Shown in pieces: positions 14,316 to 31,256 of a DNA stretch of 32,099 bases. The stretch is from Actinomycetes bacterium (GTDB lineage Bacteria > Actinomycetota > Thermoleophilia > RBG-16-64-13). The notes beneath the pieces were generated by a model. It was not told where the DNA came from. It made no database searches and saw only the letters and a program-made list of their open reading frames with translations. Location of the stretch: the NCBI GenBank assembly GCA_021802965.1, contig JAJZQZ010000012.1, forward strand, positions 1-32,099. Reading direction: 5' to 3'. How positions within the stretch are numbered: position 1 is the first letter of the stretch; every line of letters starts with the position of its first letter. Position numbers and translations under genes: made by a program.

Positions 14316-15011
14316 CTAGTCTTCCACGAGTCGGCCGCCCGCGCCAGTGGTTTCGGCCGCGGCGCCGGTCGGGGCGTGCGCGGGGGGCTCCGCCTCGGTG
14401 CTTCGGGCGCCGCCGAATGTCGCCCGCCAGAGCCTCGCCCCTATCGCGATTCCCATCAGAGCCCCGCAGAGGTCGATCGCGACGTCGCGCGGGGAGCCGG
14501 TGCGGGCGGGCAGGGTGCTCTGGTGGAGCTCGTCGAGAGTCGCGACGGCGGCGGACAGGGCAAGCGGAGGCAAGAGAAAGCGCGAGCGGCCGCGAGTGCT
14601 CGTGAGGTGGGCTGCGAGTCCGGCAGCAGCCGAACCGCCTCCGTCCGCCGGGGCGGGCGCCAAGGCCGCCCGCCGCCGGCCCCTGTCGCTCGCCCGAAGG
14701 TTCCACGCCCGCACGGCGACGAGCCCCAGGACCATGTACTCGCCCACATGGGCGAGCTTGCGGACCCACCACGGGAGAAAGCTCGGTGTGGCGGTCGAAG
14801 GCTCGATTCCGAGAAGTCCGGGAAGCCACTCGTTCATCACGTGCCAGACCCAGACGTCGATGTGAGTACGCGCGCCGAGCTCGCCAGAGGTGAAGCCTAT
14901 GACGACCAGCCACACGCCGAGCGGGGCCCACACCCGGAGGAATCGGGCGACGCGAGAACGGCGACTGATCGGCGCTGAAGCGTTCAGCGAATGCCCTTTC
15001 GACTGCGACAT
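14316..15011 (-). CDS. VanZ family membrane protein
   Basis: The protein has 231 residues, and its start overlaps the end of the ABC transporter gene by 28 bases. The VanZ core is visible as WWVRKLAHVGEYMVLGLVAV and, later, LDELHQSTLPARTGSPRDVA followed by a hydrophobic IDLCGALMGIAIG. The conserved K-x2-H, DE-x-HQ and R-x-G/S-x-x-D residues are present. The two halves are separated by an Ala/Pro/Gly-rich insert of about 40 residues, and the C-terminus is also low complexity. VanZ itself gives low-level teicoplanin resistance in enterococci, but most homologues have no known role. Co-transcription with an ABC exporter suggests an envelope function. Confidence 0.85.
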   Translation of the reverse strand: MSQSKGHSLNASAPISRRSRVARFLRVWAPLGVWLVVIGFTSGELGARTHIDVWVWHVMNEWLPGLLGIEPSTATPSFLPWWVRKLAHVGEYMVLGLVAVRAWNLRASDRGRRRAALAPAPADGGGSAAAGLAAHLTSTRGRSRFLLPPLALSAAVATLDELHQSTLPARTGSPRDVAIDLCGALMGIAIGARLWRATFGGARSTEAEPPAHAPTGAAAETTGAGGRLVED

Positions 15012-16936
15012 GCCGACACCCCCGTCTGCGCCGCCCAGGAGCGCGCGTACATGCCGCCTGCAGCGACGAGGCCGGCGTGGTCACCCGACTCGATGATCTT
15101 GCCTCCCACCATCACGTGGATGACGTCGGCATGCATGGCGGTGGTGAAGCGATGCGTGATGACCACGACGGTGCGGCGCGCAGCCAGTTCGCGGAAGCGG
15201 GCCATCCAGTCGGCCTCGGCCCAGGAGTCCATGGCGCTGGTGGGCTCGTCCAACAGCAGGATGGGAGCCTCCCGCAGGAAGCCGCGGGCCAGGGCGATGC
15301 GCTGCCACTCTCCCAGGCTGAGCTCGTGGCCGCCGTCGAACCACTTGCCGAGCAGCGCGTCGTATCCTTGTGGTAGGCGGCTGATGACCTCGTCGGCGCC
15401 GGAAGCGACCGCGGCGGCGATCACGCGCGGATGAACCGCTACCGGGGACCCCTCGCCCGAACCGCCCTCTGCGGTGGCGGATGCCGGCGGCTGGTCGAGG
15501 TTGCGATGCCCGTCGCGGGCCGCACGGTCGGCGAACAGCCCGGCTCGGTCGCCAAGCGCTATGTTCTCCCCCGCGCTCAGCGCGTACTGCACCGGCTGCT
15601 GAAAGAGCACGGTGATCATGCGGCGCACATTCGCGAGGCGCAGGGAGCGAAGATCCACGCCGTCGAGCTCCACCGACCCGGTTTGGGGATCGTAGAGTCG
15701 GCAGAGCAGCTTGAAGAGGGTCGTCTTGCCCGACCCGTTCGGGCCCACCACGGCCACCACCTGACCGGCGGGGATGACCAGATGGAAGTCGTCGAGGACG
15801 GCGCGCTCCTCGCCCGGGTGGCGGAAGCTGACTCCGCGGAAGCGGATCTCCCGTTCGAGGGCCTGGGGCGCCGGCAGCGGGTCCGGCGGGTCGACGACCC
15901 CGGGCTCGAGCTCGAGGAACTCGAACAGGTCGCCCAGGAACAGGCTGTTCGAGACCAGCTGACCGACGCCCTCCAACAGGCTCCGCATGAGCCGCTGCCC
16001 TTGATTGAACGCCTGGTAGAAGAGGGCGAGGTCGCCCAGGTCGAAGACGCCCTGGATCGTCCGCCAAAGCATCACGCCGAGAGCCCCCGCGCTGACGAGC
16101 AGCCCGAAGGCCCCGACCGCCGCCTCAGCTATCCCCTGACGCCGGGCCAGACCCAGGCAGGTCGTGCGCAGCCCGTGGCGCAGGTCGCGCCACGACTCGG
16201 TGAAATACGGGCCCAGATCGAAGAGCCGCAGCTCCGCCGCCGTCTCGCCGTGCGTGAGCAGGTAGTCGTAGTACCAGGTGCGCCGCTCGGCCGGGGTCGC
16301 GGTGCGGCGCCAGCGATGTTGGCGGGCGCCGTGGTGGATGACAACCAGAAGCGCGGGCAGCGTGCTCACCAGGAGGGCCGGCGGGAGCCACCAGCCGAAC
16401 GGAGCCAGGACGAAGAGCATCGACAGGAGGGTGAGGCTGTTCTGCAGCACGGTCCCCATGCCCTCGACCAACGCGAGCGGCCGGAATCCGGCCTCGGCGC
16501 GGGCCCGGTGGAGGTGGTCGTGATATTCCGGGGTCTCGTAGAAGGCGAAATCGGCGAGGGTCGACCTCTGGTGGATCAGCCCGTAGATGTGGTCGGTGAC
16601 CAGTTCGGACTGCACGACGCGCACGTAGCTCGAGGCCGAGCGGGCGAGCTCCTGGGTCAGCAGCACGACGGCGGTGAGGACCACCCAGAAGAGCACGGGT
16701 CCCAGCGATTCTCGGGTTCCCCCGGCACCGGCCGCCGCGACCGCGCTGTTGACCACGTCGCGCGTCAGGTAGACGAGCGCCACCGGCAGCAGGCCCTGCA
16801 CCACAAGGAGGACCGCCCAGAGCACGGTCCACACGTGGGCCGCCTCCCAGACCAGGCGCAGCGCCCGCGGGAAATACGGCAGCTGGGCGCGGGCCTGCCG
16901 GAGCTTGGCGGAGTAGGTGTCCATGGCGTGGCCCAT
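14984..16936 (-). CDS. ABC exporter half-transporter (fused permease and ATPase)
   Basis: The protein has 650 residues. An N-terminal six-helix ABC membrane domain (about 30-330) is followed by the ATPase domain (about 362-640). Walker A is GPNGSGKTT (398-406), Q-loop FQQPVQ, signature LSLGEWQRIALARG (variant LSLGE), Walker B ILLLDEPTSAMD, and the H-loop His is in ITHRF. About 40 extra low-complexity residues (465-502) sit between Q-loop and signature. It should act as a homodimer exporting a lipid, peptide or drug; the cargo is unknown. It is not the Wzm/Wzt type. ATG 16936 is preceded by GGACGG; ATG 16924 is an alternative. Confidence 0.9.
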   Translation of the reverse strand: MGHAMDTYSAKLRQARAQLPYFPRALRLVWEAAHVWTVLWAVLLVVQGLLPVALVYLTRDVVNSAVAAAGAGGTRESLGPVLFWVVLTAVVLLTQELARSASSYVRVVQSELVTDHIYGLIHQRSTLADFAFYETPEYHDHLHRARAEAGFRPLALVEGMGTVLQNSLTLLSMLFVLAPFGWWLPPALLVSTLPALLVVIHHGARQHRWRRTATPAERRTWYYDYLLTHGETAAELRLFDLGPYFTESWRDLRHGLRTTCLGLARRQGIAEAAVGAFGLLVSAGALGVMLWRTIQGVFDLGDLALFYQAFNQGQRLMRSLLEGVGQLVSNSLFLGDLFEFLELEPGVVDPPDPLPAPQALEREIRFRGVSFRHPGEERAVLDDFHLVIPAGQVVAVVGPNGSGKTTLFKLLCRLYDPQTGSVELDGVDLRSLRLANVRRMITVLFQQPVQYALSAGENIALGDRAGLFADRAARDGHRNLDQPPASATAEGGSGEGSPVAVHPRVIAAAVASGADEVISRLPQGYDALLGKWFDGGHELSLGEWQRIALARGFLREAPILLLDEPTSAMDSWAEADWMARFRELAARRTVVVITHRFTTAMHADVIHVMVGGKIIESGDHAGLVAAGGMYARSWAAQTGVSACRSRKGIR

Positions 16937-17037: not shown

Positions 17038-17442
17038 TCACTTTGCATCCGCCTGCCGGCCCACCCCCTGAAGCAGGAGCCGCAGTGACTCACCGACCCG
17101 CTCCTGATCCGCCGATCCGAGTCGCCCGATCTGCCGGAGGATGAAGCGCTCATCGAGGGTGAAGAGCTTCATGCGCACGACCGAAGGTGCGCTCAACCCG
17201 GCGGAGGAGAGTCCCTCGATGGCCGCGTCCAGAGGCCACCCAGCGTTTGCCGCGCTGGTGATCATCGCCATGACCGAGTGCCCCGACCCCGACCCGAAGG
17301 TCTCCGCACGAGACAGCACCAGGGCCGGCCGCCTCTTCGCCTTCACTCGATCGGTGAAGGGGAACGGAACCACGACCACGGCCCATCGGTCGAGCCCGCT
17401 GAGACCGCGTTCCTCCCTGGACCCGGCCGGCTCAGAGGTCAC
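17038..17442 (-). CDS. mazF: MazF/PemK-family endoribonuclease toxin
   Basis: This 134-residue protein starts on GTG 17442, overlapping the antitoxin stop by 11 bases; the frame is open upstream, but the overlap fixes the start. The family signature is WAVVVVPFPFTDR followed by KRRPALVLS, with the conserved arginine, and MAMITSA provides the conserved Thr/Ser. MazF toxins cleave mRNA at short sequence motifs. The C-terminal part (RMKLFTLDERFILRQIGRL) is typical of the longer PemK branch. The upstream AbrB-fold gene is the expected antitoxin. Confidence 0.85.
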   Translation of the reverse strand: MTSEPAGSREERGLSGLDRWAVVVVPFPFTDRVKAKRRPALVLSRAETFGSGSGHSVMAMITSAANAGWPLDAAIEGLSSAGLSAPSVVRMKLFTLDERFILRQIGRLGSADQERVGESLRLLLQGVGRQADAK

Positions 17443-17674
17443 CGTATGCCGCCTCGTCGGATTCGGAGAGCCACTCGTCAAGAGTCGTCTCGAGGGCCCG
17501 AGCGAACTCCCTGTCGAGAGGCACGGCACGGCGCAGTGTCACACGATCCCCTTCGATAACGAAGGCGATAACGTCACCTTGCGACAGCCCTAGAAGCTCC
17601 CGGACCGGCGCGGGCACTGTGGCCTGATATTTCTTGGTCAAGCGACTGACGGTGACTCCTTCCTGGCCCACCAA
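17432..17674 (-). CDS. AbrB/MazE-type antitoxin
   Basis: The protein has 80 residues. The swapped-hairpin AbrB DNA-binding domain is at the N-terminus (LTKKYQATVPAPVRELLGL, then GDVIAFVIEGDRVTLRR). The acidic C-terminal tail (LDEWLSESDEAAYGDL) would wrap the toxin. The start is uncertain: TTG 17674 follows a GGGGGG run, and an internal TTG before TKKYQ also has an upstream AGGAAGGAG. The gene lies directly upstream of mazF, with a palindromic operator in front, so autoregulation is expected. Confidence 0.82.
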   Translation of the reverse strand: MVGQEGVTVSRLTKKYQATVPAPVRELLGLSQGDVIAFVIEGDRVTLRRAVPLDREFARALETTLDEWLSESDEAAYGDL

Positions 17675-19329: not shown

Positions 19330-19348
19330 CCTGGCCGGGATCAAGGCG

Positions 19349-19803
19349 TTGAACGCGGCAACGCTACTTCAGCTGATGACCACCGTGCTCGAACGCGGCG
19401 CGCAGTTCCGCTTCACCGCACGGGGGTCCAGCATGCACCCCTTGATCCGCGACGGCGACGTCCTCACCGTGGAATCGCTCGCCGGCGGTCCCCGCGTCTG
19501 GGCGACGTCGTAGCATTCAGAAGGGACGACGACGGGCGCGTCGCGCTCCACCGCGTGGTTTCTTGCGCCATTCCAGACGGCTTCGTGCTCCGCGGAGACA
19601 ACCTGCCTCAGAGCGACGGCGTGGTCGAACGGGAGAGGATCATGGGCCGAGTGAGCGGGATCGAGAGGAAGGGCCATCGGGTGCGCATGGGAGGAAAGGT
19701 GACCGGAGCCGCCATCGCTGTGGCAAGTCGTCACGGCGTGATCGTGGCGCTACTGGGTGTGTATGGTCGCCGGCGAACGTACTGGCCGGGTCGGACTCCT
19801 TAG
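19349..19803 (+). pseudogene. S26-family (signal-peptidase-like) gene with a frameshift
   Basis: The first frame (TTG 19349 to TAG 19511) encodes FRFTARGSSMHPLIRDGD, the Ser-Met-x-Pro active-site box of S26 peptidases. The rest of the family pattern continues in another frame: RLGDVVAFR, then VALHRVV and FVLRGDN, ending in GRVSGI and a hydrophobic tail at 19803. Restoring one C in the CCCC run near 19490-19493 joins the halves as GGPPRLGDVV. The His of LHRVV in place of the bacterial lysine suggests a Ser-His (S26B/ER-type) enzyme. It is either a pseudogene or a homopolymer sequencing error. Similar small peptidases occur near PqqD/SPASM genes such as those at 21706-23287. Confidence 0.7.
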
Positions 19804-19887
19804 CTTCCGTGCGCCCGCGGCTTTGGAACGCGGCGCAGCTCGCGCCCAACGACGATGCCGCATGCCTCCGGGATTCGTGCCGAAGGC

Positions 19888-19896
19888 TGCTATATT
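19888..19896 (+). promoter_or_regulatory. Extended -10 promoter, leaderless start of the DUF5674 gene
   Basis: TG-C-TATATT ends exactly 7 nt before ATG 19904, so transcription would begin at or next to the start codon. No ribosome-binding site is present, and the -35 region is poor, as expected for an extended -10. Confidence 0.55.
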
Positions 19897-19903
19897 CGAG
19901 CCC

Positions 19904-20245
19904 ATGGAGATCATCGACCACGCCATCACCAAAGCAGACCTGGAGCGGATGGCGCAGGGCATGTTCGGAGATCTGGTCAAGGCCGTCGTCGACGTACGCC
20001 GTGGCGTCATGGCGGTGGATGCCGAGCTGCACTCCGACGAGGAGGCCCTTCTGCTCGAGGACGGTTCCGCGCAGACCGACCTTTGGGGGATCAACATCTA
20101 CCCCGAGCTCGCGGCGGCCGAGATGATCGAGTTCGACTCCATGATCAACATCCGACCTTCACAAGGGAACCGATCGCGCGGGGTCGAAGACCCCCTTATC
20201 CGAGACCGCATCCTTACGGTCGTGCGCTCCCTGGTTTCCGGGTGA
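19904..20245 (+). CDS. DUF5674 family protein
   Basis: This 113-residue protein shows the conserved blocks I associate with DUF5674: MVKAVVD-like DLVKAVVDVRRGVMAVDAE, then LHSDEEALLLEDGS and TDLWGINIYPE, and the C-terminal FDSMINIRPSQGNRSRGVED. The family is widespread but uncharacterised. The strongly kept RPSQGNRSRGVED block with Asn, Arg and acidic residues could form a nucleotide- or nucleic-acid-binding site, but that is inference. It starts on ATG 19904 from a leaderless-type promoter. Its TGA overlaps the next gene in a GTGA junction, so the two products are probably made in fixed ratio. Confidence 0.85.
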   Translation: MEIIDHAITKADLERMAQGMFGDLVKAVVDVRRGVMAVDAELHSDEEALLLEDGSAQTDLWGINIYPELAAAEMIEFDSMINIRPSQGNRSRGVEDPLIRDRILTVVRSLVSG

Positions 20246-20589
20246 ACGCTCAGCACCCAGAGCTGGCGCAGGGCCGGTGGCAGACGCTCCCCCTGATCGA
20301 GCAGCTCGCCAACGTGGGCAGCGAGGTGGAGCGGGCGATCAGCTGGGCAGCGAAAGACAACGACGCGTACAGTGGACGCGCCCTCTACCGGGCGCTCGAG
20401 CTCCTGGAGCTGACGATCGCCGACCCGCGCCATCGCCACCGCCTCAAGGAGCTGACGCGCGTCCGAGAGGCACTCCTCGACTACTTCCTCGGCGACAACG
20501 AGTTCCGGTCGACTCCCGTCAGCTGGCACCGCTACTTTCACCCTTACGGAACGGCCGTGGCGATCAGGAGACACCCGCCCGGCGGTTGA
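20242..20589 (+). CDS. Small helical protein coupled to DUF5674 (unknown function)
   Basis: The protein has 115 residues from GTG 20242. The sequence looks all-helical, with LPLIEQLANVGSEVERAISW, YRALELLELTIADPRHRHRL, TRVREALLDYFLGDNEFRST and WHRYFHPYG. I recall similar small proteins (pattern EQ-x-N-x-GSEV-x-RA, ALELLDLTIADP, YF-x2-Y/F) beside DUF5674 genes in other bacteria, but I cannot name a family. The four-base overlap with DUF5674 indicates they work together, perhaps as a complex. The shape is also compatible with a helical-bundle TA partner, without direct evidence. Confidence 0.72.
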   Translation: MNAQHPELAQGRWQTLPLIEQLANVGSEVERAISWAAKDNDAYSGRALYRALELLELTIADPRHRHRLKELTRVREALLDYFLGDNEFRSTPVSWHRYFHPYGTAVAIRRHPPGG

Positions 20590-20606
20590 CCCCCCTCAAC
20601 CCCGCC
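20581..20606. terminator. Imperfect hairpin spanning two convergent stop codons
   Basis: GGCGG-TTGA (20581-20589) pairs with TCAA (20596-20599) and CCGCC (20602-20606), with a two-base bulge and a CCCCCC loop. It covers the stops of both the 20242 gene and the convergent RES gene. Confidence 0.4.
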
Positions 20607-21060
20607 GCAGCAGTCGCAGATCGGTGACGAACTCCCGGGGCTCACCTAAGGCGACCGACCCAAACGCCGGGTGGAGCGGGTTCAGCAGGTAGTTGGACTC
20701 ATCGGGGACAACGGCGCTCGGGACGGCGAGGACGGCGCTCGACAGCTTTCGCGCCCACGCCGAGCCGATGACCCGCAGCCGCCGGTTCTCTCCCGGGCCG
20801 CGCCAGCCCCGGGGCAGGATGGACGCATCGATCCGCTCCACCTCCAACTCGTCGGGGACAGTGGCCGCGATCAGTACGTAGCGCGCCCGCAACGGGTCGT
20901 CCTGGACCAGCATCTCAAGCATCGCCAGCGCCTGCGAGCCGGAGGTGTAGACCACGGGGATCCCCTTGCGATTCCAGCGGCCCCCGTAAAGCCAGGCGCC
21001 CTCGCCGCTGAAGGCCGAGCCGGCGTACCGTGCCGTCACGAGACGCCAGACCGTGAGCAT
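20596..21060 (-). CDS. RES-domain toxin (NAD-targeting family)
   Basis: This 154-residue protein is a single RES domain. It starts WRLVTARYAGSAFSGEGAWL, followed by YGGRWNRKGIPVVYTSGSQALAMLE, which carries the conserved Arg, Tyr and Glu of the active-site pocket; a late Ser-Asn pair is in PDESNYLLNP. Characterised RES toxins degrade NAD+ or ADP-ribosylate targets. The gene lies 27 bp downstream of a matching Xre antitoxin. No strong ribosome-binding site precedes ATG 21060, so translation may depend on the upstream gene. Confidence 0.88.
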   Translation of the reverse strand: MLTVWRLVTARYAGSAFSGEGAWLYGGRWNRKGIPVVYTSGSQALAMLEMLVQDDPLRARYVLIAATVPDELEVERIDASILPRGWRGPGENRRLRVIGSAWARKLSSAVLAVPSAVVPDESNYLLNPLHPAFGSVALGEPREFVTDLRLLRRG

Positions 21061-21087
21061 CAGACAGGACTCATGGGCAGGCAGGGC

Positions 21088-21543
21088 TCACGCGAAGACC
21101 CCGTGCTCGATACGACCGAGGGTATCCTGCACGCTCTGCGCGCCCACTTCGGTGTCGAGTAGGCTGAAGGGGCTGGCGCCGCCAAGCGCTGCGTTTCGCG
21201 AGTCGAGCCAGTCGAGGGCGACATCGAGAGACTCGAAGACCTCCGCCGCCCGCGCCACGAGGCGCGCAAGACGAACGATCTTGTCGGACTCCTCGCTCGT
21301 GAGGGCGCCTTCTCGCTTGCGCCTGACCAGCGTCCGCTCGGAGATGCCCAGGTTCCGCGCGATCTCAGCCTGGGTCAGACCAAGCGAGGCAGTCAGGGCC
21401 TCGACGGTGAGAGCCGGCAGCCCCTTGCGCACGACAATCACCCAGTCGAGCCTCGCCTGCGGTCCCACTCCCAGTGCGGCGCGACCGCCGAGGAGGTTCT
21501 CCACCGTCACGGACTTTCGTTGTTGAGCGGCGGCTCTGGCCAT
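21088..21543 (-). CDS. Xre/ParS/MbcA-type antitoxin of the RES toxin
   Basis: The protein has 151 residues, with AAGGGA upstream of ATG 21543. The N-terminal half has an Xre-like helix-turn-helix (LTQAEIARNLGISERTLVRR). The C-terminal half is the DUF2384/ParS toxin-binding domain (IVRLARLVARAAEVFESLD) and ends RIEHGVFA, which inserts into the toxin active site in solved RES-Xre complexes. It lies first in a two-gene minus-strand operon, the standard order for this system. Confidence 0.88.
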   Translation of the reverse strand: MARAAAQQRKSVTVENLLGGRAALGVGPQARLDWVIVVRKGLPALTVEALTASLGLTQAEIARNLGISERTLVRRKREGALTSEESDKIVRLARLVARAAEVFESLDVALDWLDSRNAALGGASPFSLLDTEVGAQSVQDTLGRIEHGVFA

Positions 21544-21705
21544 GGCGGGTTCCCTTCCGGCGTCGGGATGCTTCGGAGGCGTGGCGCCATCTGGCGTCCA
21601 TCATAGGTAGGAATGGCGTGAAGAACAAGGGCCCGCGACTGGCATCAGGTACGCCGTCCGCCTTCGGCGCCGGCCACCGCCGGCCGCTCCCGGCACAACC
21701 GAGGG

Positions 21706-22041
21706 TCAGCCGCGAACGGCCAAGATCCTCCGCTTCGTCATCTCGACGGCGAAGCCCAGCACGTCTGCTTCGAGACCGCCCGGCGCCGCCTGGTACTCAT
21801 CGGTCAAGGCCGCGGCCACCTCAGCGAGAGTGCGCCTGCCGTCGAGCTTCTGCCATATGGCCTTGCCGGTCTCGTTCAGCGTGTAGAGCTCGTCGTCGGC
21901 GTCGCCGATGCCGGCGACCAGGGGCACGATGATGACATCGCCCTCGATCTCACGAAAGACGACAGCGTCGGAAGGGACGCAGATGCTCTCGAGCGTGACC
22001 TCGGGTCCCGAGACGTCCTCTGCTTTCATGTCGTCGATCAA
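21706..22041 (-). CDS. PqqD-family protein (radical SAM peptide chaperone-like)
   Basis: The protein has 111 residues from TTG 22041, chosen because AGGAGG lies 8 bases upstream; the first ATG (22029) is too far from it. The PqqD fold is seen in VVFREIEGDVIIVPL, DELYTLNETGKAIWQKLDG, RRTLAEVAAALTDEY and the C-terminal VEMTKRRIL. PqqD proteins bind precursor peptides and present them to radical SAM/SPASM enzymes. Here the SPASM gene lies 82 bp upstream on the same strand, so the pair probably acts on one substrate. No precursor peptide is visible nearby. Confidence 0.85.
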   Translation of the reverse strand: MIDDMKAEDVSGPEVTLESICVPSDAVVFREIEGDVIIVPLVAGIGDADDELYTLNETGKAIWQKLDGRRTLAEVAAALTDEYQAAPGGLEADVLGFAVEMTKRRILAVRG

Positions 22042-22123
22042 GACAGCGTCCTCCTGCGACGATAGCTGTGAGCGGACATGCCCGAGCATAGCAGCACGGC
22101 GCCCGAGAGCGCGCGTGGCAGGC

Positions 22124-23287
22124 CTACCCGTCGATCCCCAGCGCCCCGGCCCGGGCATGGGCGACGCGGCAGAAGTAGTCGACCCAAGCATCCATGGAGC
22201 CCGTCTCCAGCGCCGCGTGGGCCGGGCACCACAGACAGAGGTCGACGAGAGAGCAGCGCCGGCACTTCTGCAGGAACTCCGGATCGCTGCCGCGCAGGTC
22301 GCGCACGTGAGGCACCCACTCCACCCAGGCCTCGCGCAGCGTCCCCCGGCGCAGATCGTAGACCGTGTCCGGATGGCAGAGGGAGCTGCAGAGGCGGAAG
22401 GTGCCGTCGTAGCCCACCGTGAAGCTCCCCTGGCCGGCGCCGCAATGGAAGAGGTGGTCGCAGCCGTCATGCTCCCCGCTCGGCTGGAACACCATGCCGT
22501 CGGTGCAGCCCCGCTCCAGGGCGCCGAAGCGCTCCGGGTCCGCCCGCTCTAGGGCCACGAGCTCCTCCGGCGGAAGGCGTTCGGCCTCGATCTCGGCGTT
22601 ACGGACTGCGTCGCCGTCGAAGCGGCCGTGCAGCAGCGGATCGAAGCGATAGAAATCGGCGGTCCGCTCCCGGCAGAACGCGGCGATCTCCGCGAACTCC
22701 CCCAGGTTGGAGCGCAGCGCCATGGCCTTGAACCTCACCTTCACGCCCGCCTCCGCGAGCAGGTCCAGCCCCCGCAGGAACGCGGCGTGCGAGCCCGGCC
22801 GGCGTGTGACCGCCTCGTACGTCTCCCGGGTCACCCCGTACACCGATACCTCGATGTCGCGCGGCGGGTAGGCACGAAAGAGCTCGGCGTGAGCGGGCGT
22901 GACCAGACAGGCATTGGTGAAGACGCCGACCAGCAGCCCCAGCCGCTTCAGGCCCAGGTATATGTCGCCGAAGTCCGCCCGCAGAAGGGGCTCGCCCCCC
23001 GTCAGAAGACACCACACGGCCCCCATGTCCACCGCTTCGCGCCCGATGCCGAGGATCTCGTCGAGGCCGAGTTCCGCGGCGGCAGCGGTGGCGTCCCCGG
23101 AAGGTAGGTTGATGTAGCAGTGCCGGCAGTCGTTGTTGCAGCGGGCGGTGAGCTCCAGGTCGAAGGCGTGTGGCGCACCCTTGGCGGCAAGCTTGCTCCA
23201 CAGCGGGAGTGCCTGGACCGTCATGGACCTACTCGTCGACGCAGAGTTCGCAGCCTCGGCGGGCTCAGGTGTCGGGGAGTCGTCCAT
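22124..23287 (-). CDS. Radical SAM/SPASM enzyme
   Basis: This 387-residue protein has the 4Fe-4S motif C50-x3-C54-x2-C57 (TARCNNDCRHCYINLP) and the SAM-binding block LLTGGEPLLR. The C-terminal SPASM domain has cysteines near 282, 300, 304, 342, 345, 351, 354 and 373 (KCRRCSLVDLCLWCPA), enough for auxiliary clusters. Such enzymes modify peptides or proteins, usually with a PqqD-like partner, which follows directly. The start at ATG 23287 is supported by a promoter 9 bases upstream and the absence of a ribosome-binding site. Substrate unknown. Confidence 0.88.
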   Translation of the reverse strand: MDDSPTPEPAEAANSASTSRSMTVQALPLWSKLAAKGAPHAFDLELTARCNNDCRHCYINLPSGDATAAAAELGLDEILGIGREAVDMGAVWCLLTGGEPLLRADFGDIYLGLKRLGLLVGVFTNACLVTPAHAELFRAYPPRDIEVSVYGVTRETYEAVTRRPGSHAAFLRGLDLLAEAGVKVRFKAMALRSNLGEFAEIAAFCRERTADFYRFDPLLHGRFDGDAVRNAEIEAERLPPEELVALERADPERFGALERGCTDGMVFQPSGEHDGCDHLFHCGAGQGSFTVGYDGTFRLCSSLCHPDTVYDLRRGTLREAWVEWVPHVRDLRGSDPEFLQKCRRCSLVDLCLWCPAHAALETGSMDAWVDYFCRVAHARAGALGIDG

Positions 23288-23296
23288 GACCGTTCG

Positions 23297-23325
23297 AGTC
23301 TATTCGACGGCGTCGAGGCGGGCAA
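23297..23325 (-). promoter_or_regulatory. Promoter of the radical SAM gene (leaderless type)
   Basis: On the minus strand TTGCCC (23325-23320), a 17-bp spacer and TAGACT (23302-23297) form a good sigma-70-like promoter. The -10 ends 9 nt before ATG 23287, so the transcript would have little or no leader. Confidence 0.5.
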
Positions 23326-23364
23326 GGGAGCAGCAAGAACGAAGCCTGTGACCCTCAGTCGCTG

Positions 23365-23393
23365 CGGACACGTTTGATGATTTCGGATATAGT
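23365..23393 (+). promoter_or_regulatory. Promoter of the AbrB-PIN module
   Basis: CGGACA (23365-23370), a 17-bp spacer and TATAGT (23388-23393) lie upstream of the GGAGG site at 23431. The -35 matches consensus at four of six positions. Confidence 0.45.
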
Positions 23394-23440
23394 TACGCCA
23401 TGTCCGCTAGATAGGCCAAGCGTCCGCATTGGAGGTAGAG

Positions 23441-23698
23441 GTGCCGACCATACGAGTGGGCCGTCGAGGGCAGGTCACGATACCGTCGGATGTGCGAAGG
23501 GACCTTGATCTTCACGACGGCGATCGCATGTTCCTGCTCGTTCGTGCTGGAGACATCCTGCTGCGCCCTGCCGGCGCTTCTATCTTCTCGCTTCGAGGAA
23601 GTATTCCCGTTACGGGGCCTCAAGACTTCGCGGAGATCCGCAACGAGGTGCTCCGGCTCCGTGCTCAGGGCAAGGCGAACGCCGTCGATGATGAGTGA
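23441..23698 (+). CDS. AbrB/SpoVT-type antitoxin of a PIN toxin
   Basis: The protein has 85 residues from GTG 23441, chosen because GGAGG lies five bases upstream. The DNA-binding domain is typical (VPTIRVGRRGQVTIPSDVRR, then LDLHDGDRMFLLVRAGDILLR). The C-terminal tail is helical and charged (FAEIRNEVLRLRAQGKANA) and is expected to bind the toxin. It overlaps the PIN gene by 11 bases, the standard antitoxin-first order. Confidence 0.85.
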   Translation: MPTIRVGRRGQVTIPSDVRRDLDLHDGDRMFLLVRAGDILLRPAGASIFSLRGSIPVTGPQDFAEIRNEVLRLRAQGKANAVDDE

Positions 23699-24185
23699 CA
23701 AACCCAACGCCGGGGAGCGGGCTCGTCCCGTCGGTCAAGTTCGGTCAGGTCCGATCTTTGTCGACACGAACGTGTTTCTGCGCTTTCTTACCAACGACGT
23801 GCCCGACCAAGCTTCCGCCGCGGAGAGGTTGTTCCAACAGGCGGCGCGCGGGGAAGTCCAGCTGATGACCAACACGATGGTGCTGGCGGAGCTGGTATGG
23901 GTTACGGAGTCGCACTACCGCCTGCCTAAGAGCGGAGTGCATGAACGGGTGCTCGCCATAGTCGGGATGGAGGGGCTGGACGTGCCCGCGCTGGACGTGG
24001 CTCTGGAGGCGCTGCACGACTACGTGGAGAAGAACGTGGACCTCATCGACGCCTACAACGTGGCCTGGGCCCGGAGCCATGCGGTCGACTCCTTCGCCAC
24101 CTTCGACGCCAAACATCTCGGCCGGTTCGAGGATCTCGAGGTCGTGATCCCGGGCCAACGCTTCAGTCCTTCGGCAGCCTCCTAG
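23688..24185 (+). CDS. PIN-domain ribonuclease toxin (VapC-like)
   Basis: This 165-residue protein starts at ATG 23688 (ATG 23691 is equivalent), overlapping the antitoxin gene. Acidic active-site residues are D26 (FVDTNVFLRFL), E68 (LAELVWV), D121 (DLIDAYNVAWA) and D140 (FATFDAKHL), the full PIN quartet. PIN toxins cleave tRNA or rRNA with Mg2+. About 20 non-conserved residues precede the domain. Its 3' end overlaps the decayed SPASM gene on the other strand by 23 bases. Confidence 0.87.
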   Translation: MMSDKPNAGERARPVGQVRSGPIFVDTNVFLRFLTNDVPDQASAAERLFQQAARGEVQLMTNTMVLAELVWVTESHYRLPKSGVHERVLAIVGMEGLDVPALDVALEALHDYVEKNVDLIDAYNVAWARSHAVDSFATFDAKHLGRFEDLEVVIPGQRFSPSAAS

Positions 24186-24573
24186 CTGTGATGCCCGCCT
24201 CTGCCCCCTCCCACCCCAGCTGGCCATCCCGCAGCCAGCCCAGGTGCCGCGCCTGGGCGTGGGCCACCTCGCACAGGTAGTCGACCGGGGTGTCTAGCGT
24301 GCCGTGCTCGCTCCATGATTTGGCCGGGCACTGTTCGCAGAGACCGCGGAGGAAGCACCGCGCGCAGCGGCCAAGGTAGTCGGAGTGGGCCGCACGCATC
24401 TCGCGTAGCTCGGTGAAGCGTTCGAGCGCCGCGGCGAGGGGAGCATCGAGGACGCCCATGGTCAGCTCGGGCGCCCGGAGGGTCAGGCACGGCTGCGCCC
24501 TCCCGTAGGCATCGACGGCGATGCCCCCGCAACCGGCTCCGCACGTGAAGAGGTGGTCGTCGGGCAACGGCAT
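24163..24573 (-). pseudogene. Truncated radical SAM/SPASM protein, C-terminal domain only
   Basis: From MPLPDDHLFTCGAG onward the frame matches the end of the intact SPASM enzyme at 22124-23287. CARCFLRGLCEQCPAK aligns with CRRCSLVDLCLWCPAH, and TPVDYLCEVAHAQA with AWVDYFCRVAHARA. The frame is open further upstream but loses all similarity beyond about 24590, and there is no CxxxCxxC radical SAM core. The 5' half was therefore lost, with the divergent RHH-PIN module starting at 24697 now beside the break. It is a remnant of a second SPASM gene. Confidence 0.75.
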
Positions 24574-24696
24574 GAAGCGGGCGCGCGCAGCTCGACGTGG
24601 ATGGGCGTGGTGTCGTAACCCGGCGAAGGCGACCGTGGCGCCATCGTGGCCCACTGGCGGTCGCGCGCCATACGCATATATGATATCGTGTACGGC

Positions 24697-24933
24697 ATGA
24701 ACGACACCAAGCTCACCGTCCGCCTCCCCCGGGAAACTCTGGACGAGGCCAAGCGCTACGCCCGCGAGCACGACACCAGTGTGAGCCGGTTGGTCATCAC
24801 GCACCTCGAACACCTGCGGCGCACCGATGACCTGCTGGCCGATGCGCCCATCACGCGGCGGCTGGTAGGGGCGCTCGCTCCCGAAGCCACGATCCAGGAG
24901 TACCGGGACTACCTCGAGCGCAAGTATGCCTAA
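24697..24933 (+). CDS. Ribbon-helix-helix antitoxin (DUF6364/VapB-like)
   Basis: The protein has 78 residues from ATG 24697. The N-terminal RHH domain reads KLTVRLPRETLDEAKRYARE followed by TSVSRLVITHLEHL; the C-terminal tail (IQEYRDYLERKYA) would bind the toxin. No ribosome-binding site is seen. TG-A-TATCGT at 24681-24689 ends 7 nt upstream, so a leaderless start is possible. The stop overlaps the PIN gene by 8 bases. Confidence 0.8.
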   Translation: MNDTKLTVRLPRETLDEAKRYAREHDTSVSRLVITHLEHLRRTDDLLADAPITRRLVGALAPEATIQEYRDYLERKYA

Positions 24934-25354
24934 GGGACCCCGGGTCCTGCTCGACGTCAACGTGATCCTCGACGTGCTCCAACGCCGGGAGCCCTTCCTG
25001 GCCGACTCCGCCTCCGTCATGGCCGCCGTTGAATCGGGCCGGTGCGAAGGTCTCATCGCCGCCCACACCGTTACGACTTTGTTCTACCTCATGACAAAGC
25101 ACGCGTCGGCCACGGTTGCGCGCGTCCACGTTATCGAGCTGCTCCGAGTGCTCAAGGTGGCTCAGGTCGACCAGGGGGTGCTGGAGGAAGCTCTGGCCCT
25201 CCCGTATGCCGATATCGAAGACGCCGTGCAGATGGCAGCCGCCGAGCGCGCCGGTGCCGAGTATCTGGTGACGCGCGACCGGGCTGGGTATTCCGCCGGC
25301 CCGTTGCCTACTCTTGCTCCCGGCGAGTTGCTGCCGCTGTTGGGGGGGGCATAG
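24926..25354 (+). CDS. PIN-domain protein, probable toxin of the RHH antitoxin
   Basis: The protein has 142 residues. It starts VLLDVNVILDVLQRREPF, with the first active-site Asp at residue 10. YADIEDAVQMAAAERAGAEY gives the third acidic site and LVTRDRAGY the fourth. The usual glutamate of the second site is not seen in TVTTLFYLMTK, as in one branch of PIN proteins. The organisation (antitoxin first, 8-base overlap) makes it a type II toxin candidate. Confidence 0.82.
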   Translation: MPKGPRVLLDVNVILDVLQRREPFLADSASVMAAVESGRCEGLIAAHTVTTLFYLMTKHASATVARVHVIELLRVLKVAQVDQGVLEEALALPYADIEDAVQMAAAERAGAEYLVTRDRAGYSAGPLPTLAPGELLPLLGGA

Positions 25355-25450: not shown

Positions 25451-26620
25451 TCACTCCTCCCGCCACACCACCCGGCGCACGTAGTCGGTGTAGGAGAGGA
25501 TGATGCGCACCACCTTCTCGGAGACCGCCGGGGCGTCGTAGTCGCGCACCATCGGCAGCAGGCGATCGCCGCCGCCGCCCCCGCCCGAGCCGCCGGCATC
25601 GCCCGACCGACCCGATGCCCGCGCGCCCGCAAGCACCGTCAAGGCTTCGGAGATGCGCTCCCAGCTCAAGCCGGTCATCATGACCGCGCCTTCCTCCATG
25701 CCTTCGGGCCGCTCGTGGGCCTCGCGGATGTTCAGAGCGGGGAAGTCCAGGATCGACGACTCCTCGGTGATGGTGCCCGAATCGGAGAGCGTGGCCTGCG
25801 CGTGCAGCTGCAGGTGTACATAGTCGGTGAACGCCAGCGGCTTCAGCAATCGCACGCCGCTCTCGGGGCCGAACTCCACCCCTTCGGCCTCCAGCCGCTT
25901 CCGCGTGCGCGGGTGCGTGGAGACGATCACCGGCAGCCGGTGCTCGGCCGGCAGGCGCCGCAGCAGCTCCACCAGCTGGGGGAAGAGCCGGGGCGAGTCG
26001 ACGTTCTCCTCCCGGTGGCAGCTCACCAGGTAGAAGCGGCCCGCCGTGAACTCGAGTCGCGAGAGGATGTCGGAGGCGTCGATCTTCGGCCGGTAGTAGT
26101 GCAGCACCTCGTACATGGGGCTGCCCGTCTTGACGATGCGGTCGGCGGGGAGCCCTTCGGCCAGCAGATACGAGCGGGAGATATCGCTGTAGGGCATGTT
26201 GATGTCGGCGATGTGGTCGACGATCTTGCGGTTGATCTCTTCGGGGACGCGCTCGTCGAAGCACCGGTTGCCAGCCTCCATGTGGAACACCGGGATCCGC
26301 CGGCGCTTAGCCGCGATGGCCGCCAGGCAACTGTTGGTGTCGCCCAGGATGAGCACCGCGTCGGGCCGGATCTCGGCCAGCACAGCGTCGGAACGGGCGA
26401 TGACCTGGCCGATGGTCTCGGCGGCCGTGCCGCCCGCGGCGTCCAGGTAGTGGTCGGGTGGGCGCAGGCCGAGGTCGTCGAAGAAGATCTGGTTCAGCTC
26501 GTAGTCGTAGTTCTGACCGGTGTGGACGAGCACGTGCTCGAACGAGCGGTCCAGGGCCGCGAGCACCCGCGAGAGCCGGATGATCTCCGGCCGCGTCCCC
26601 ACGATGGTGGCCACCTTCAT
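25451..26620 (-). CDS. fnlC: UDP-2-acetamido-2,6-dideoxy-L-talose 2-epimerase (FnlC/CapG)
   Basis: The protein has 389 residues from ATG 26620, preceded by GGAGGAGGGGC and sharing ATGA with fnl[15 protein letters not shown] opens the non-hydrolysing epimerase fold. [35 protein letters not shown] and [19 protein letters not shown] are the FnlC/CapG/WbjD variants of the WecB motifs. It makes UDP-N-acetyl-L-fucosamine in the last step of the pathway. A Gly/Ser/Ala-rich insert lies near residues 332-352 ([10 protein letters not shown]), an odd low-complexity linker not expected in the family. Confidence 0.92.
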
Positions 26621-27756
26621 GCCTGCCCCTCCTCCAGCACCGGGAACGGATACGTGTCGGGATGATCGGGGTCGAACACCTCGTCGGCCCAGAAGAGGGT
26701 CACGAGCTCTCCCCTCCCCACATTCTCGATGCTGTGCGAGAGTCCTGGGGGGATGTCCAGCACCCGGAACATCGAACCGTTCACGCGGTGCTCGATCAAC
26801 GGCCCGCCGCGCACGTCGCGAAAGCGGATGACCGCCTCGCCCTCCACGACCAGGAACTTCTCCGCCTTGGTGTGGTGGTAGTGGTTGCCCCGAGTCACGC
26901 CCGGGACCGTCCGCGACACGAAGAGCTGACCGAAGCCCCGCTGCTTGAGGAACTCCGCCAGCGATCCCCGCGCATCCGCCGACGCACGCAAGGAGTACGC
27001 GAGATCGGAGCCCTCCAGATGAGACAGATAGGTGGCGTACAGTCGGGACACGAGGGGGTCGGAGAACTCGGGCACCATGAGCGTATCGCGACTGCGCGGA
27101 AAGCTCTCGATGCGCCCGGCCACCTCCCCCACGGTCGTCCAGAACACCGGCGCCACCGCGCGGTACTCGAAGCCGGTCGGCGGTTCGTCCAGGCAACGAA
27201 GCAGCGCCGCCACCACGTCGTCGATGTAGACCAGGTTCAGATCGGCGTCCGGATCGTTCACGCTGAGCGGCAGGCCGTGGGCCGCCTGATGGCAGAACGT
27301 GGCCACCGCCGAGTTATAGAACGGGCGCGACCACTTGCCGAAGACGTTGGGCAACCGGAAGACCACGGCCGGGGCGCCGGTCTGCCCCGCCCACAGCTTG
27401 AGAGCCTCCTCGGCCCCCAGCTTGCTTCGCCCGTACGGGTTGTCGAACGTCGCCTGGACGGAGGACGTGAAGACCACCAGTGGTTTCCGGTCCGCATCGG
27501 CAAGGGTGCGACAGATGTCGCCCGTGAGGCCGGCGTTGCCGCTCTGGAACTCGTCCAGCGACTGGGGGCGGTTCACCCCCGCGAGGTGGATCACCGCATC
27601 GGCGGAGAGCAGAGCCTCGTGCTGATCTTCGGCAGAGGCGCCTACGTCGACGCCGACCACACTCGTCCCGGGGCGACGGAGCAGCGCCTCGACCACGTGC
27701 CGCCCCATGAATCCCTCCGACCCGGTGACGGCGACGGTCAGGCTGGCTGGAGTCAC
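26617..27756 (-). CDS. fnlB: UDP-2-acetamido-2,6-dideoxy-hexulose reductase (FnlB/CapF), SDR-cupin fusion
   Basis: The protein has 379 residues from GTG 27756. The N-terminal SDR domain has [15 protein letters not shown] and Y108-x3-K112 ([12 protein letters not shown]). The C-terminal cupin (about 275-379) carries [19 protein letters not shown] and H341, the likely metal ligands. This fusion is specific to CapF/FnlB/WbjC, where the cupin epimerises C3 and the SDR reduces C4. The gene is three bases after fnlA and overlaps fnlC, so the three are translated together. Confidence 0.92.
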
Positions 27757-27759
27757 GCG

Positions 27760-28800
27760 CTACTCCGCGCGAAGGGTCGAATCGAGAGGCGGGAGTCCCA
27801 GGTCCTGGCGGATGAAGCCCACACAGAGCAGCAGTTCGGCCATCTGGTCGACGTCCAGCCGCTGGGCGTTGTGGGAGTGGAAGTCCTCCAGCACCGAGAT
27901 GTCGGGCCGGCCCTCGACGTAGTACTCGTCGTAGTTCAGATCGCGGTTGTCGGCCACGACCCGGAAGTAGTCGCCCAGATCCTGGGAGCGGGCCATCTCC
28001 TCGCGGGTGAGCAGGGTCTCGTAGACCTTCTCGCCATGCCGAGTGCCGATGATCCTGATCGGGCTGTCGGCCTGATAGAGCTTCTTCATGGCCAGGGCCA
28101 GAGTCTCGATCGTAGCCGCGGGCGCCTTGCGCACAAAGAGGTCGCCCGGCTCGCCGCACTGGAAGGCGTAGACGACCAGCTCCACCGCGTCCTCGATGGA
28201 CATGAGAAAGCGGGTCATGTTGGGGTCGGTGACCGTCAGTGGCTTGCCCTGCTTGATCTGCTCGGCGAAGAGGGGGATCACCGAACCCCGCGAGGCCATG
28301 ACGTTGCCATAGCGTGTGGCGCAGATGGTCAGCCCCTGAGGAGCCGCCACCCGCGCCTTGGCCACGGCCAGCTTCTCCATCATGGCCTTGGAGATGCCCA
28401 TGGCGTTGATGGGGTAGGCGGCCTTGTCTGTGGAGAGGACGATCAGGCGCTCAACCCCCGCCACAACGGCCGCGCTCATGACGTTCTCGGCCCCGATGGC
28501 GTTGGTGAGCAGGGCTTCCATGGGGTAGAACTCGCAGGCCGGCACCTGCTTCAGGGCGGCGGCGTGAAAGACGAAATCCACCCCGGCCAGAGCGTCGCGG
28601 AGGCCCTCAGGACGGCGCACGTCACCGATGTAGAACTTCAGCTTGGGGTCGGCGTACTCCAGCCGCATGTCGTGCTGCTTCTTCTCGTCGCGGCTGAAGA
28701 CGCGGATCTCGGCGATGTCGGTGGCCAGGAAACGGCGCAGGACCGCGTTGCCGAAGGTGCCGGTACCGCCGGTGATGAAGAGCGTCTTGCCGGAGAACAC
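27760..28800 (-). CDS. fnlA: UDP-GlcNAc 4,6-dehydratase/5-epimerase (FnlA/CapE)
   Basis: This 346-residue protein starts on GTG 28800 after a GGGGGG run. The NAD site is FITGGTGTFGNAV. The active site has D125-K126 (STDKAAYP) and Met134-x3-K138 (AMGISK), where the usual Tyr is replaced by Met as in CapE/FlaA1 enzymes. It converts UDP-GlcNAc to the 4-keto-6-deoxy intermediate with inversion at C5, the first step towards UDP-L-FucNAc. It is the first gene of fnlABC. Confidence 0.93.
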   Translation of the reverse strand: MFSGKTLFITGGTGTFGNAVLRRFLATDIAEIRVFSRDEKKQHDMRLEYADPKLKFYIGDVRRPEGLRDALAGVDFVFHAAALKQVPACEFYPMEALLTNAIGAENVMSAAVVAGVERLIVLSTDKAAYPINAMGISKAMMEKLAVAKARVAAPQGLTICATRYGNVMASRGSVIPLFAEQIKQGKPLTVTDPNMTRFLMSIEDAVELVVYAFQCGEPGDLFVRKAPAATIETLALAMKKLYQADSPIRIIGTRHGEKVYETLLTREEMARSQDLGDYFRVVADNRDLNYDEYYVEGRPDISVLEDFHSHNAQRLDVDQMAELLLCVGFIRQDLGLPPLDSTLRAE

Positions 28801-28953: not shown

Positions 28954-29006
28954 TAGTTCGTACAGATGTCGTCAGAACGGCGACAACCAAACAGCGAGGT
29001 GACGCC

Positions 29007-29306
29007 ATGAAGACTATCCCCCTGCGGGATTTCCAGCGCGAAGGAGTGAAGGCGCTGGGCGCTGGGTCTTCAACCGAGCCGCTGCTGCTCACCGGCCGCG
29101 ATCGGGAGTTCGTCCTGTTTCAGGTGTCTGCCGACAATCGGACCGCGGTGCTGGACCTTGCCGAGGGTATCGCAGCCGTCTTGGCCTTGCGGGAGGATCA
29201 GGACCGGTCTGTGGAGGCCGGCTTGGATCGACTCTCCACCGAGGACATCGAGGCCGAGATCCGGGATGCGCGGCAGACCATCAGGAGCCGGAAGCGCTCC
29301 GCGTGA
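29007..29306 (+). CDS. Probable antitoxin (Phd-like) of a COG1569-type PIN toxin
   Basis: The protein has 99 residues. The N-terminus (MKTIPLRDFQREGVKALGAG, then EPLLLTGRDREFVLFQVS) resembles Phd/YefM-type antitoxins, and the C-terminal half is acidic and helical (LSTEDIEAEIRDARQTIRS). Family assignment is tentative. The start has a clear ribosome-binding site. The stop overlaps the PIN gene in a GTGA junction, the usual antitoxin-toxin arrangement. Confidence 0.75.
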   Translation: MKTIPLRDFQREGVKALGAGSSTEPLLLTGRDREFVLFQVSADNRTAVLDLAEGIAAVLALREDQDRSVEAGLDRLSTEDIEAEIRDARQTIRSRKRSA

Positions 29307-29716
29307 GTCAAGCCGTCGTCCTGGATACCAACATGCTGGTCTCGGCGGCCCTGAAGCCCGGAAGCGACATCGCCCGCATCCTGGAGCGGGTCTTGCTTCG
29401 GCAGACGCCGGTGTATCTGTGCCCCTCCATCGTGGCGGAATATCAGGAGGTGTTGACCCGACCGAAACTCAGGCCCCGGGGCCTCCCTCCCGCTTGGCTT
29501 CCCCGACTGCTCCAGGTCGCCTTTCATCAGCCGGAACCCGCTCCCTGGCCACTGAAGGGTCCGGATCCAGATGACCTGGTGTTCCTCGCCCTGGCGAAGG
29601 CGAACGGGGCGGTGGTGGTAACAGGGAACCGGGCCCATTTCCCGACGGAGATCCGCGATGGTGTGAAGGTCCTGAGTCCCCAGGAATACGCGGAACGTCG
29701 CATGGCAGGAGAATGA
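29303..29716 (+). CDS. PIN-domain toxin, COG1569-like
   Basis: The protein has 137 residues from GTG 29303 in the GTGA overlap. Active-site residues are D8 (VVLDTNMLVSA), E46 (IVAEYQEVL) and D90/D91 (PDPDDLVFL). The last motif is VTGNRAHFPTEI, with Asn in place of Asp, a common variant in this branch. A 34-codon copy of its C-terminus lies at 31401-31502. Confidence 0.85.
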   Translation: MSQAVVLDTNMLVSAALKPGSDIARILERVLLRQTPVYLCPSIVAEYQEVLTRPKLRPRGLPPAWLPRLLQVAFHQPEPAPWPLKGPDPDDLVFLALAKANGAVVVTGNRAHFPTEIRDGVKVLSPQEYAERRMAGE

Positions 29717-30607: not shown

Positions 30608-31045
30608 TCAGCCGGCGGCGAAGGGATCCTTCACCGTCAGCGCGTCGAACTCCCGACCGTGCTGGAGGTCCTGCGAGTAGAGGGTGCGGCACCCCGCCTC
30701 CAGAGCGGCGGCCACGATGAGGCTGTCGTAGAAGCTGTATCCGGAGCGCTCCTGCACGTCGAGAGCGCGGAGGTAGAGGGCAACGGTGGGCGATACACGC
30801 CACAGCGGAGCCAGGACCTGCTCCACGTAGGCCCGGCAGTCGCCAAGACTCAAGGGCACGCTGAACTTCCGCGTGGCCACGTTCAGGAGCTCCTGGACAA
30901 CCTGGTGGCTCACAACCCCCAGGCGCGTGGTCAGCGCCAGCTCGACCAACTCGCGGGCCTGAGCCTGCTGGACCGGCGAGGTCTCATCGAACGTATAGAC
31001 GAAGATGTTCGTGTCCAGGAAGAACCGGGCGGGACTACCGGGCAT
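30608..31045 (-). CDS. PIN-domain ribonuclease toxin (VapC-like)
   Basis: The protein has 145 residues from ATG 31045, chosen because it overlaps the antitoxin stop by 11 bases and the domain begins at once (ARFFLDTNIFVYTFDE). The acidic quartet is D11, E52 (VVQELLNV), D107 (SFYDSLIV) and D126 (LYSQDLQHG), complete for a PIN nuclease. Confidence 0.87.
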   Translation of the reverse strand: MPGSPARFFLDTNIFVYTFDETSPVQQAQARELVELALTTRLGVVSHQVVQELLNVATRKFSVPLSLGDCRAYVEQVLAPLWRVSPTVALYLRALDVQERSGYSFYDSLIVAAALEAGCRTLYSQDLQHGREFDALTVKDPFAAG

Positions 31046-31256
31046 TGAGTTCCTCTCGGGTGAAACGCCGGCCGGGGTGCGCATATGCGAGCCGTGCCAT
31101 AAGTTCGTGGTATCCGTGGGCCGCCCGCTCCTGCTGCACGAAAGCCGCAAGCCACAGGCGGAACTCAGCGTTCAGCGTGGTGCCGTGCCGTTCGGCCTCT
31201 TCGCGCGCGCGGGCGATGAGCTGCTCCTCCGCACTCAGGGTTATGTTCTTCAGCAT
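31035..31256 (-). CDS. Ribbon-helix-helix VapB-type antitoxin
   Basis: The protein has 73 residues, with GGAG seven bases before ATG 31256. The RHH core is MLKNITLSAEEQLIARARE followed by TTLNAEFRLWLAAF. The tail ending RRFTREELNAR would bind the PIN toxin encoded by the overlapping gene. A near-perfect inverted repeat covers the promoter. Confidence 0.83.
   Translation of the reverse strand: MLKNITLSAEEQLIARAREEAERHGTTLNAEFRLWLAAFVQQERAAHGYHELMARLAYAHPGRRFTREELNAR

Follow-up and report, generated by a model that had tools for sequence, protein, structure and literature searches.

Intact radical SAM/SPASM and PqqD genes as the probable survivors of a broken RiPP cassette in a Thermoleophilia genome

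PqqD-type proteins bind the leaders of precursor peptides, and SPASM enzymes modify the cores. In PQQ biosynthesis (PqqA/D/E), a PqqD recognition protein is paired with a radical SAM (rSAM) enzyme of the SPASM type, and the SynChlorMet (Scm) system, catalogued as NCBIfam TIGR04248-TIGR04251, comprises two rSAM/SPASM enzymes, a PqqD-like protein and the kinase-like ScmC. Sactipeptides and ranthipeptides likewise combine SPASM rSAM enzymes with Cys-containing precursors. The lasso peptides paeninodin and pseudomycoidin involve a PqqD-like B1 protein, an HPr-kinase homologue acting on the C-terminal Ser, and a nucleotidyltransferase (PMC8498205). The window analysed here, 32,099 nucleotides long, is one entire contig (C119) of a metagenome-assembled genome (MAG) that is 78% complete and comprises 3.24 Mb on 263 contigs. 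Any absence from its own genome given below covers the assembled ~78%; ~22% is not assembled.

The window contains an rSAM/SPASM maturase adjoining a PqqD-type recognition protein, as in rSAM/PqqD-type RiPP systems. The enzyme, rSAM1 (22124-23224, minus strand, 366 aa; Pfam Radical_SAM, 75 bits), has the CX3CX2C motif and seven SPASM-type Cys; its reading frame is open from 23287, and homologues and codon scoring favour the start at 23224. The PqqD-family protein, of the leader-binding type (21706-22041, minus strand; Pfam PqqD, 56 bits), begins with a TTG preceded by AGGAGG, which leaves an 82-bp gap to rSAM1; the alternative start is an ATG at 22029 (21706-22029). It is the sole PqqD in the assembled genome. 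The open frames and the Pfam matches bear out the first-pass annotation, which had described both genes as intact. Among columns conserved in at least 93% of 79 orthologues, none of 100 is violated in the window's rSAM1 and none of 14 in its PqqD. In the tree, rSAM1 appears as the sister of the intact locus L071 of genome G340 (support 100/94), with an end branch of 0.36 against 0.34 for the sister, and no long branch is seen.

An rSAM1 alignment was used to scan the genomes of 84,980 species, and 79 loci were obtained. Comparing the neighbourhoods of SPASM relatives, a check already proposed in the first-pass annotation, revealed a recurrent cassette with precursors, composed of rSAM3, an HPr-kinase-like protein, rSAM2, PqqD, an S24/S26-like peptidase and rSAM1, often also with NTP_transf_5 and ABC transporter genes. 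In some cassettes rSAM3 is fused to the HPr-kinase-like domain. Gene counts refer to 78 loci with a strong rSAM1, of which 40 have at least 8 kb upstream; among these 40, rSAM2 is found in all 40, PqqD in 39, the S24 peptidase in 38, the HPr-kinase-like gene in 36 and a local precursor in 33. In genomes of the same class, orthologues with 57-74% identity lie inside multi-gene cassettes. The rSAM1 and PqqD of the window are orthologous to those of intact cassettes with W..PEL.VL precursors: rSAM1 is 72-74% identical to cassette orthologues of relatives, and PqqD is 71% identical to that of the G300 cassette. The cassette occurs in Actinomycetota, Chloroflexota, Aminicenantes, Acidobacteriota, Omnitrophota, Chlorobiota, Deltaproteobacteria, Planctomycetota and Lentisphaerota and in the methanogenic archaea Methanothrix, Methanoregula and Methanolinea, with the reservation that many hosts are MAGs and single placements may be binning errors. 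A plasmid search gave no close relative (best match 26% identity); on viral contigs, the single-protein search gave no locus and an early alignment gave three weak rSAM loci. A related cassette of one rSAM, PqqD and an HPr-kinase-like protein is seen in a distant family (L014, L015 and L016 of G156, G294 and G123), within exopolysaccharide-type loci, with precursors of ~50 aa bearing the motif INRFF.G.C....P.CYS....PG.A.CR.

The short ORFs beside the relatives' cassettes have one leader in common. These precursors are ~60 aa long, with the leader W..PEL.VL.RG.PEE.VL..CK and a Cys-containing core. The iterated precursor profile gave 95 matches, most with four Cys, and 84 of the 95 lie on the strand of rSAM1. 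The last residue is Ser in 77 and Thr in 7 of 91 strong precursors (84/91 together), vs. 11% and 5%, respectively, in background ORFs. The tested precursors match no NCBIfam or Pfam model. A near-universal C-terminal Ser/Thr together with a recurrent HPr-kinase-like gene makes a lasso-like C-terminal phosphorylation step likely, the tailoring being ascribed by analogy to the HPr-kinase-like enzyme. In the Omnitrophota genome G531 (locus L105), at least five strong and further weak precursor-like ORFs are spread over several contigs, none of them beside its rSAM1 locus, which suggests that a single cassette may act on many precursors encoded far from it. Single-rSAM relatives in the genomes of family f3 (L052, L054, L055 and L056) have a near-invariant precursor ending in GWCSG....SCS..GS, which is far less variable than main-family precursors.

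A member of this precursor family was sought in the window. The first-pass annotation had reported no precursor in the 82-bp gap (22042-22123), in 21544-21705 or in 23288-23440, and had named a precursor ORF there as the finding that would overturn it; the profile and gap comparison likewise found none, only short ORFs that are not precursor-like. Across six stop-tolerant frames of the window the profile gave nothing significant, the best match (E 0.04) being an out-of-frame stretch inside another gene. An in-frame precursor relic ahead of PqqD (SSQEDAVLIDDMK), picked by eye, received no support from the profile and was rejected. The assembled genome (78% complete) also gave nothing significant, whereas the profile was positive in 16 of 16 control genomes, none of which had contributed its precursors to it. 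The cognate precursor gene is thus seen in relatives and in neither the window nor the assembled part of its own genome. In four control genomes the cassette has no precursor beside it but one is encoded at another place, which lends some weight to the earlier suggestion that the precursor is encoded at a distance, although none is present in the assembled 78%. It has most likely been lost, or lies within the ~22% not assembled.

Other parts of the cassette are present as fragments, which the first-pass annotation, like the relatives' precursor, had overlooked. The C-terminal SPASM part of rSAM2, about a third of the protein, remains at 24163-24576 (minus strand; NCBIfam TIGR04085 above cut-off) and matches the C-terminal part of the G340 rSAM2 at 68% identity. 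The cassette's S24/S26-like peptidase gene (19337-19761, plus strand) is recognised from a pair of neighbouring matches, which a frameshift near 19490 places in different frames; it is displaced and lies on the strand opposite to rSAM1 and PqqD. PqqD, which lies upstream of rSAM1 in 70 of the 71 relatives with both genes on one strand, is directly downstream in the window. The assembled genome lacks the HPr-kinase-like and NTP_transf_5 proteins, for both of which the controls were positive, and it lacks rSAM3 as well; apart from the SPASM part of rSAM2, an rSAM1 search of the same genome returned nothing but distant rSAM proteins. The window's own copy therefore lacks a full-length rSAM2, the HPr-kinase-like protein and the precursor. 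Two further candidates were rejected. The ABC transporter at 14984-16936 is only ~40% identical to cassette ABCs, vs. 50-67% among themselves, and was not accepted as the cassette exporter. The idea that rSAM1 and rSAM2 had recombined at their 3' ends was dismissed when the tblastn extension past the rSAM1 stop proved chance-like frame by frame.

The flank indicates where these fragments belong. The genes wecB-capF-capE (25451-28800, minus strand) are 68, 54 and 72% identical to those of G300, where capE-capF-wecB lies upstream of an intact cassette just as it lies upstream of the fragments here; the window is therefore probably a broken copy at the cassette's old site. In G300, the interval from wecB to the position at which the rSAM2 fragment starts is ~6.2 kb and holds an ABC gene, two precursors and rSAM3/HPrK. 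The corresponding interval in the window is <0.9 kb, and a DUF6364/PIN_3 toxin-antitoxin-like pair (24700-25354, plus strand) occupies the place of the relatives' precursor, rSAM3, HPr kinase and rSAM2 front. A MazE-like/PIN pair (23429-24185, plus strand) separates the rSAM2 remnant from rSAM1, and a RES/Xre pair (20596-21543, minus strand; NCBIfam above cut-off) lies downstream of PqqD. Toxin-antitoxin-like modules are unusually dense in the window (also 17038-17671, 29007-29716 and 30608-31256), several stand at cassette breakpoints, and a pair adjoining the G326 cassette shares 77-80% identity with that at 28968-29716. The toxin-antitoxin genes may have caused the loss or may have settled later. 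Beyond the RES/Xre pair (19862-20589), a DUF5674 gene and a 115-aa ORF that follows and overlaps it, and that matches no Pfam model, possibly form an undescribed two-gene module.

We consider that rSAM1 and PqqD are probably the surviving parts of a broken RiPP cassette and that the pair is locally orphaned; the precursor would be missing from the window because the cassette is broken. In an intact cassette, PqqD would bind the precursor leader, the SPASM enzymes would act on the core, probably on its Cys residues, the HPr-kinase-like protein would phosphorylate the C-terminal Ser/Thr, to which the NTP_transf_5 protein may add a sugar, and the protease and ABC transporter would release the product. 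At this site, the stretch from wecB to the rSAM2 remnant, which now holds a toxin-antitoxin pair, would have lost rSAM3, the HPr kinase, the precursor genes and the rSAM2 front, PqqD would have been relocated behind rSAM1, and the peptidase gene would have been displaced and frameshifted. We infer that the part not assembled holds no precursor either. Since rSAM1 and PqqD have no violated columns and an ordinary branch length, either the cassette broke recently or the two proteins are still in use.

Continued use might mean activity in trans on a precursor with a leader of the same class, encoded somewhere in the ~22% not assembled. The undecayed conserved residues and ordinary branch length agree with this, as do the four control genomes with a precursor only elsewhere and the many precursors of G531 on several contigs. 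We nevertheless regard it as unlikely: the assembled 78% holds no precursor, 33 of 40 relatives keep theirs locally, and the assembly also lacks the HPr kinase, the nucleotidyltransferase and most of rSAM2. It is less probable by far that the scrambled, precursor-less order is an assembly artefact and that the organism's cassette is intact. The MAG is fragmented (263 contigs), the gene order is unlike that of relatives and the peptidase is frameshifted, but the flank agrees with that of the intact G300 cassette, the junctions show no repeats of at least 24 bp, G+C is even and the assembly holds no further cassette fragments elsewhere. The scrambled order could still be partly misassembly, and the peptidase frameshift a sequencing error. 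The idea that rSAM1 and PqqD have taken on another kind of substrate, such as the larger protein suggested at first pass, is very hard to credit. It would fit the missing precursor and the conservation of rSAM1 and PqqD without their partners; yet relatives co-occur with a dedicated family of ~60-aa precursors with a strongly conserved leader, and rSAM1 shows neither divergence at conserved sites nor a long branch.

Gene loss from a broken cassette is thus the most likely answer to the puzzle of the missing precursor. No NCBIfam or Pfam model is specific for the cassette, which may be undescribed, so that the earlier idea of a new RiPP class has some merit for the system to which the enzymes belong, while the pair alone makes no new class. 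A search of the open-access literature, with most subscription papers outside it, found no description of the cassette, the leader motif or the Scm gene names; the claim of novelty is provisional for that reason. We tentatively suggest an undescribed RiPP class of bacteria and methanogenic archaea, with up to three SPASM enzymes, one PqqD, an HPr-kinase-like enzyme, an S24/S26-like peptidase and W..PEL.VL.RG.PEE.VL..CK precursors whose C-terminal Ser may be phosphorylated or glycosylated, the window being a natural minimal remnant. The comparison exposes a RiPP cassette in many mostly uncultured bacterial phyla and in methanogenic archaea, with a leader clear enough for searching, and leads to the predictions that PqqD recognises the W..PEL.VL leader and that the HPr-kinase-like enzyme modifies the C-terminal Ser. 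It also indicates that the rSAM and PqqD genes can remain intact when the rest of such a cassette falls apart, which counsels caution before substrate-less rSAM/PqqD pairs are called new classes.

Compared with the known systems, the nearest catalogued one is SynChlorMet, which resembles the cassette in its two rSAM/SPASM enzymes, PqqD-like protein and kinase-like component. The tested parts fall far under the curated cut-offs of the Scm models (rSAM1 81 vs. 400; PqqD 28 vs. 100; HPrK-like 23 vs. 125), and none of ScmC, ScmD, ScmE and ScmF is matched above its cut-off. The window's pair resembles that of PQQ biosynthesis in composition and stays below both models (PqqE 55 bits vs. 381; PqqD 38.5 vs. 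46). The SPASM enzymes and Cys-containing precursors recall sactipeptides and ranthipeptides; the leader differs, and the AlbA model gives 47 bits vs. 850. In contrast to lasso systems, the core would be handled by rSAM/SPASM enzymes and the cassettes examined have no lasso cyclase, whereas the PqqD-like B1 protein, the HPr-kinase homologue and the nucleotidyltransferase are shared with the phosphorylated and glycosylated lasso peptides.
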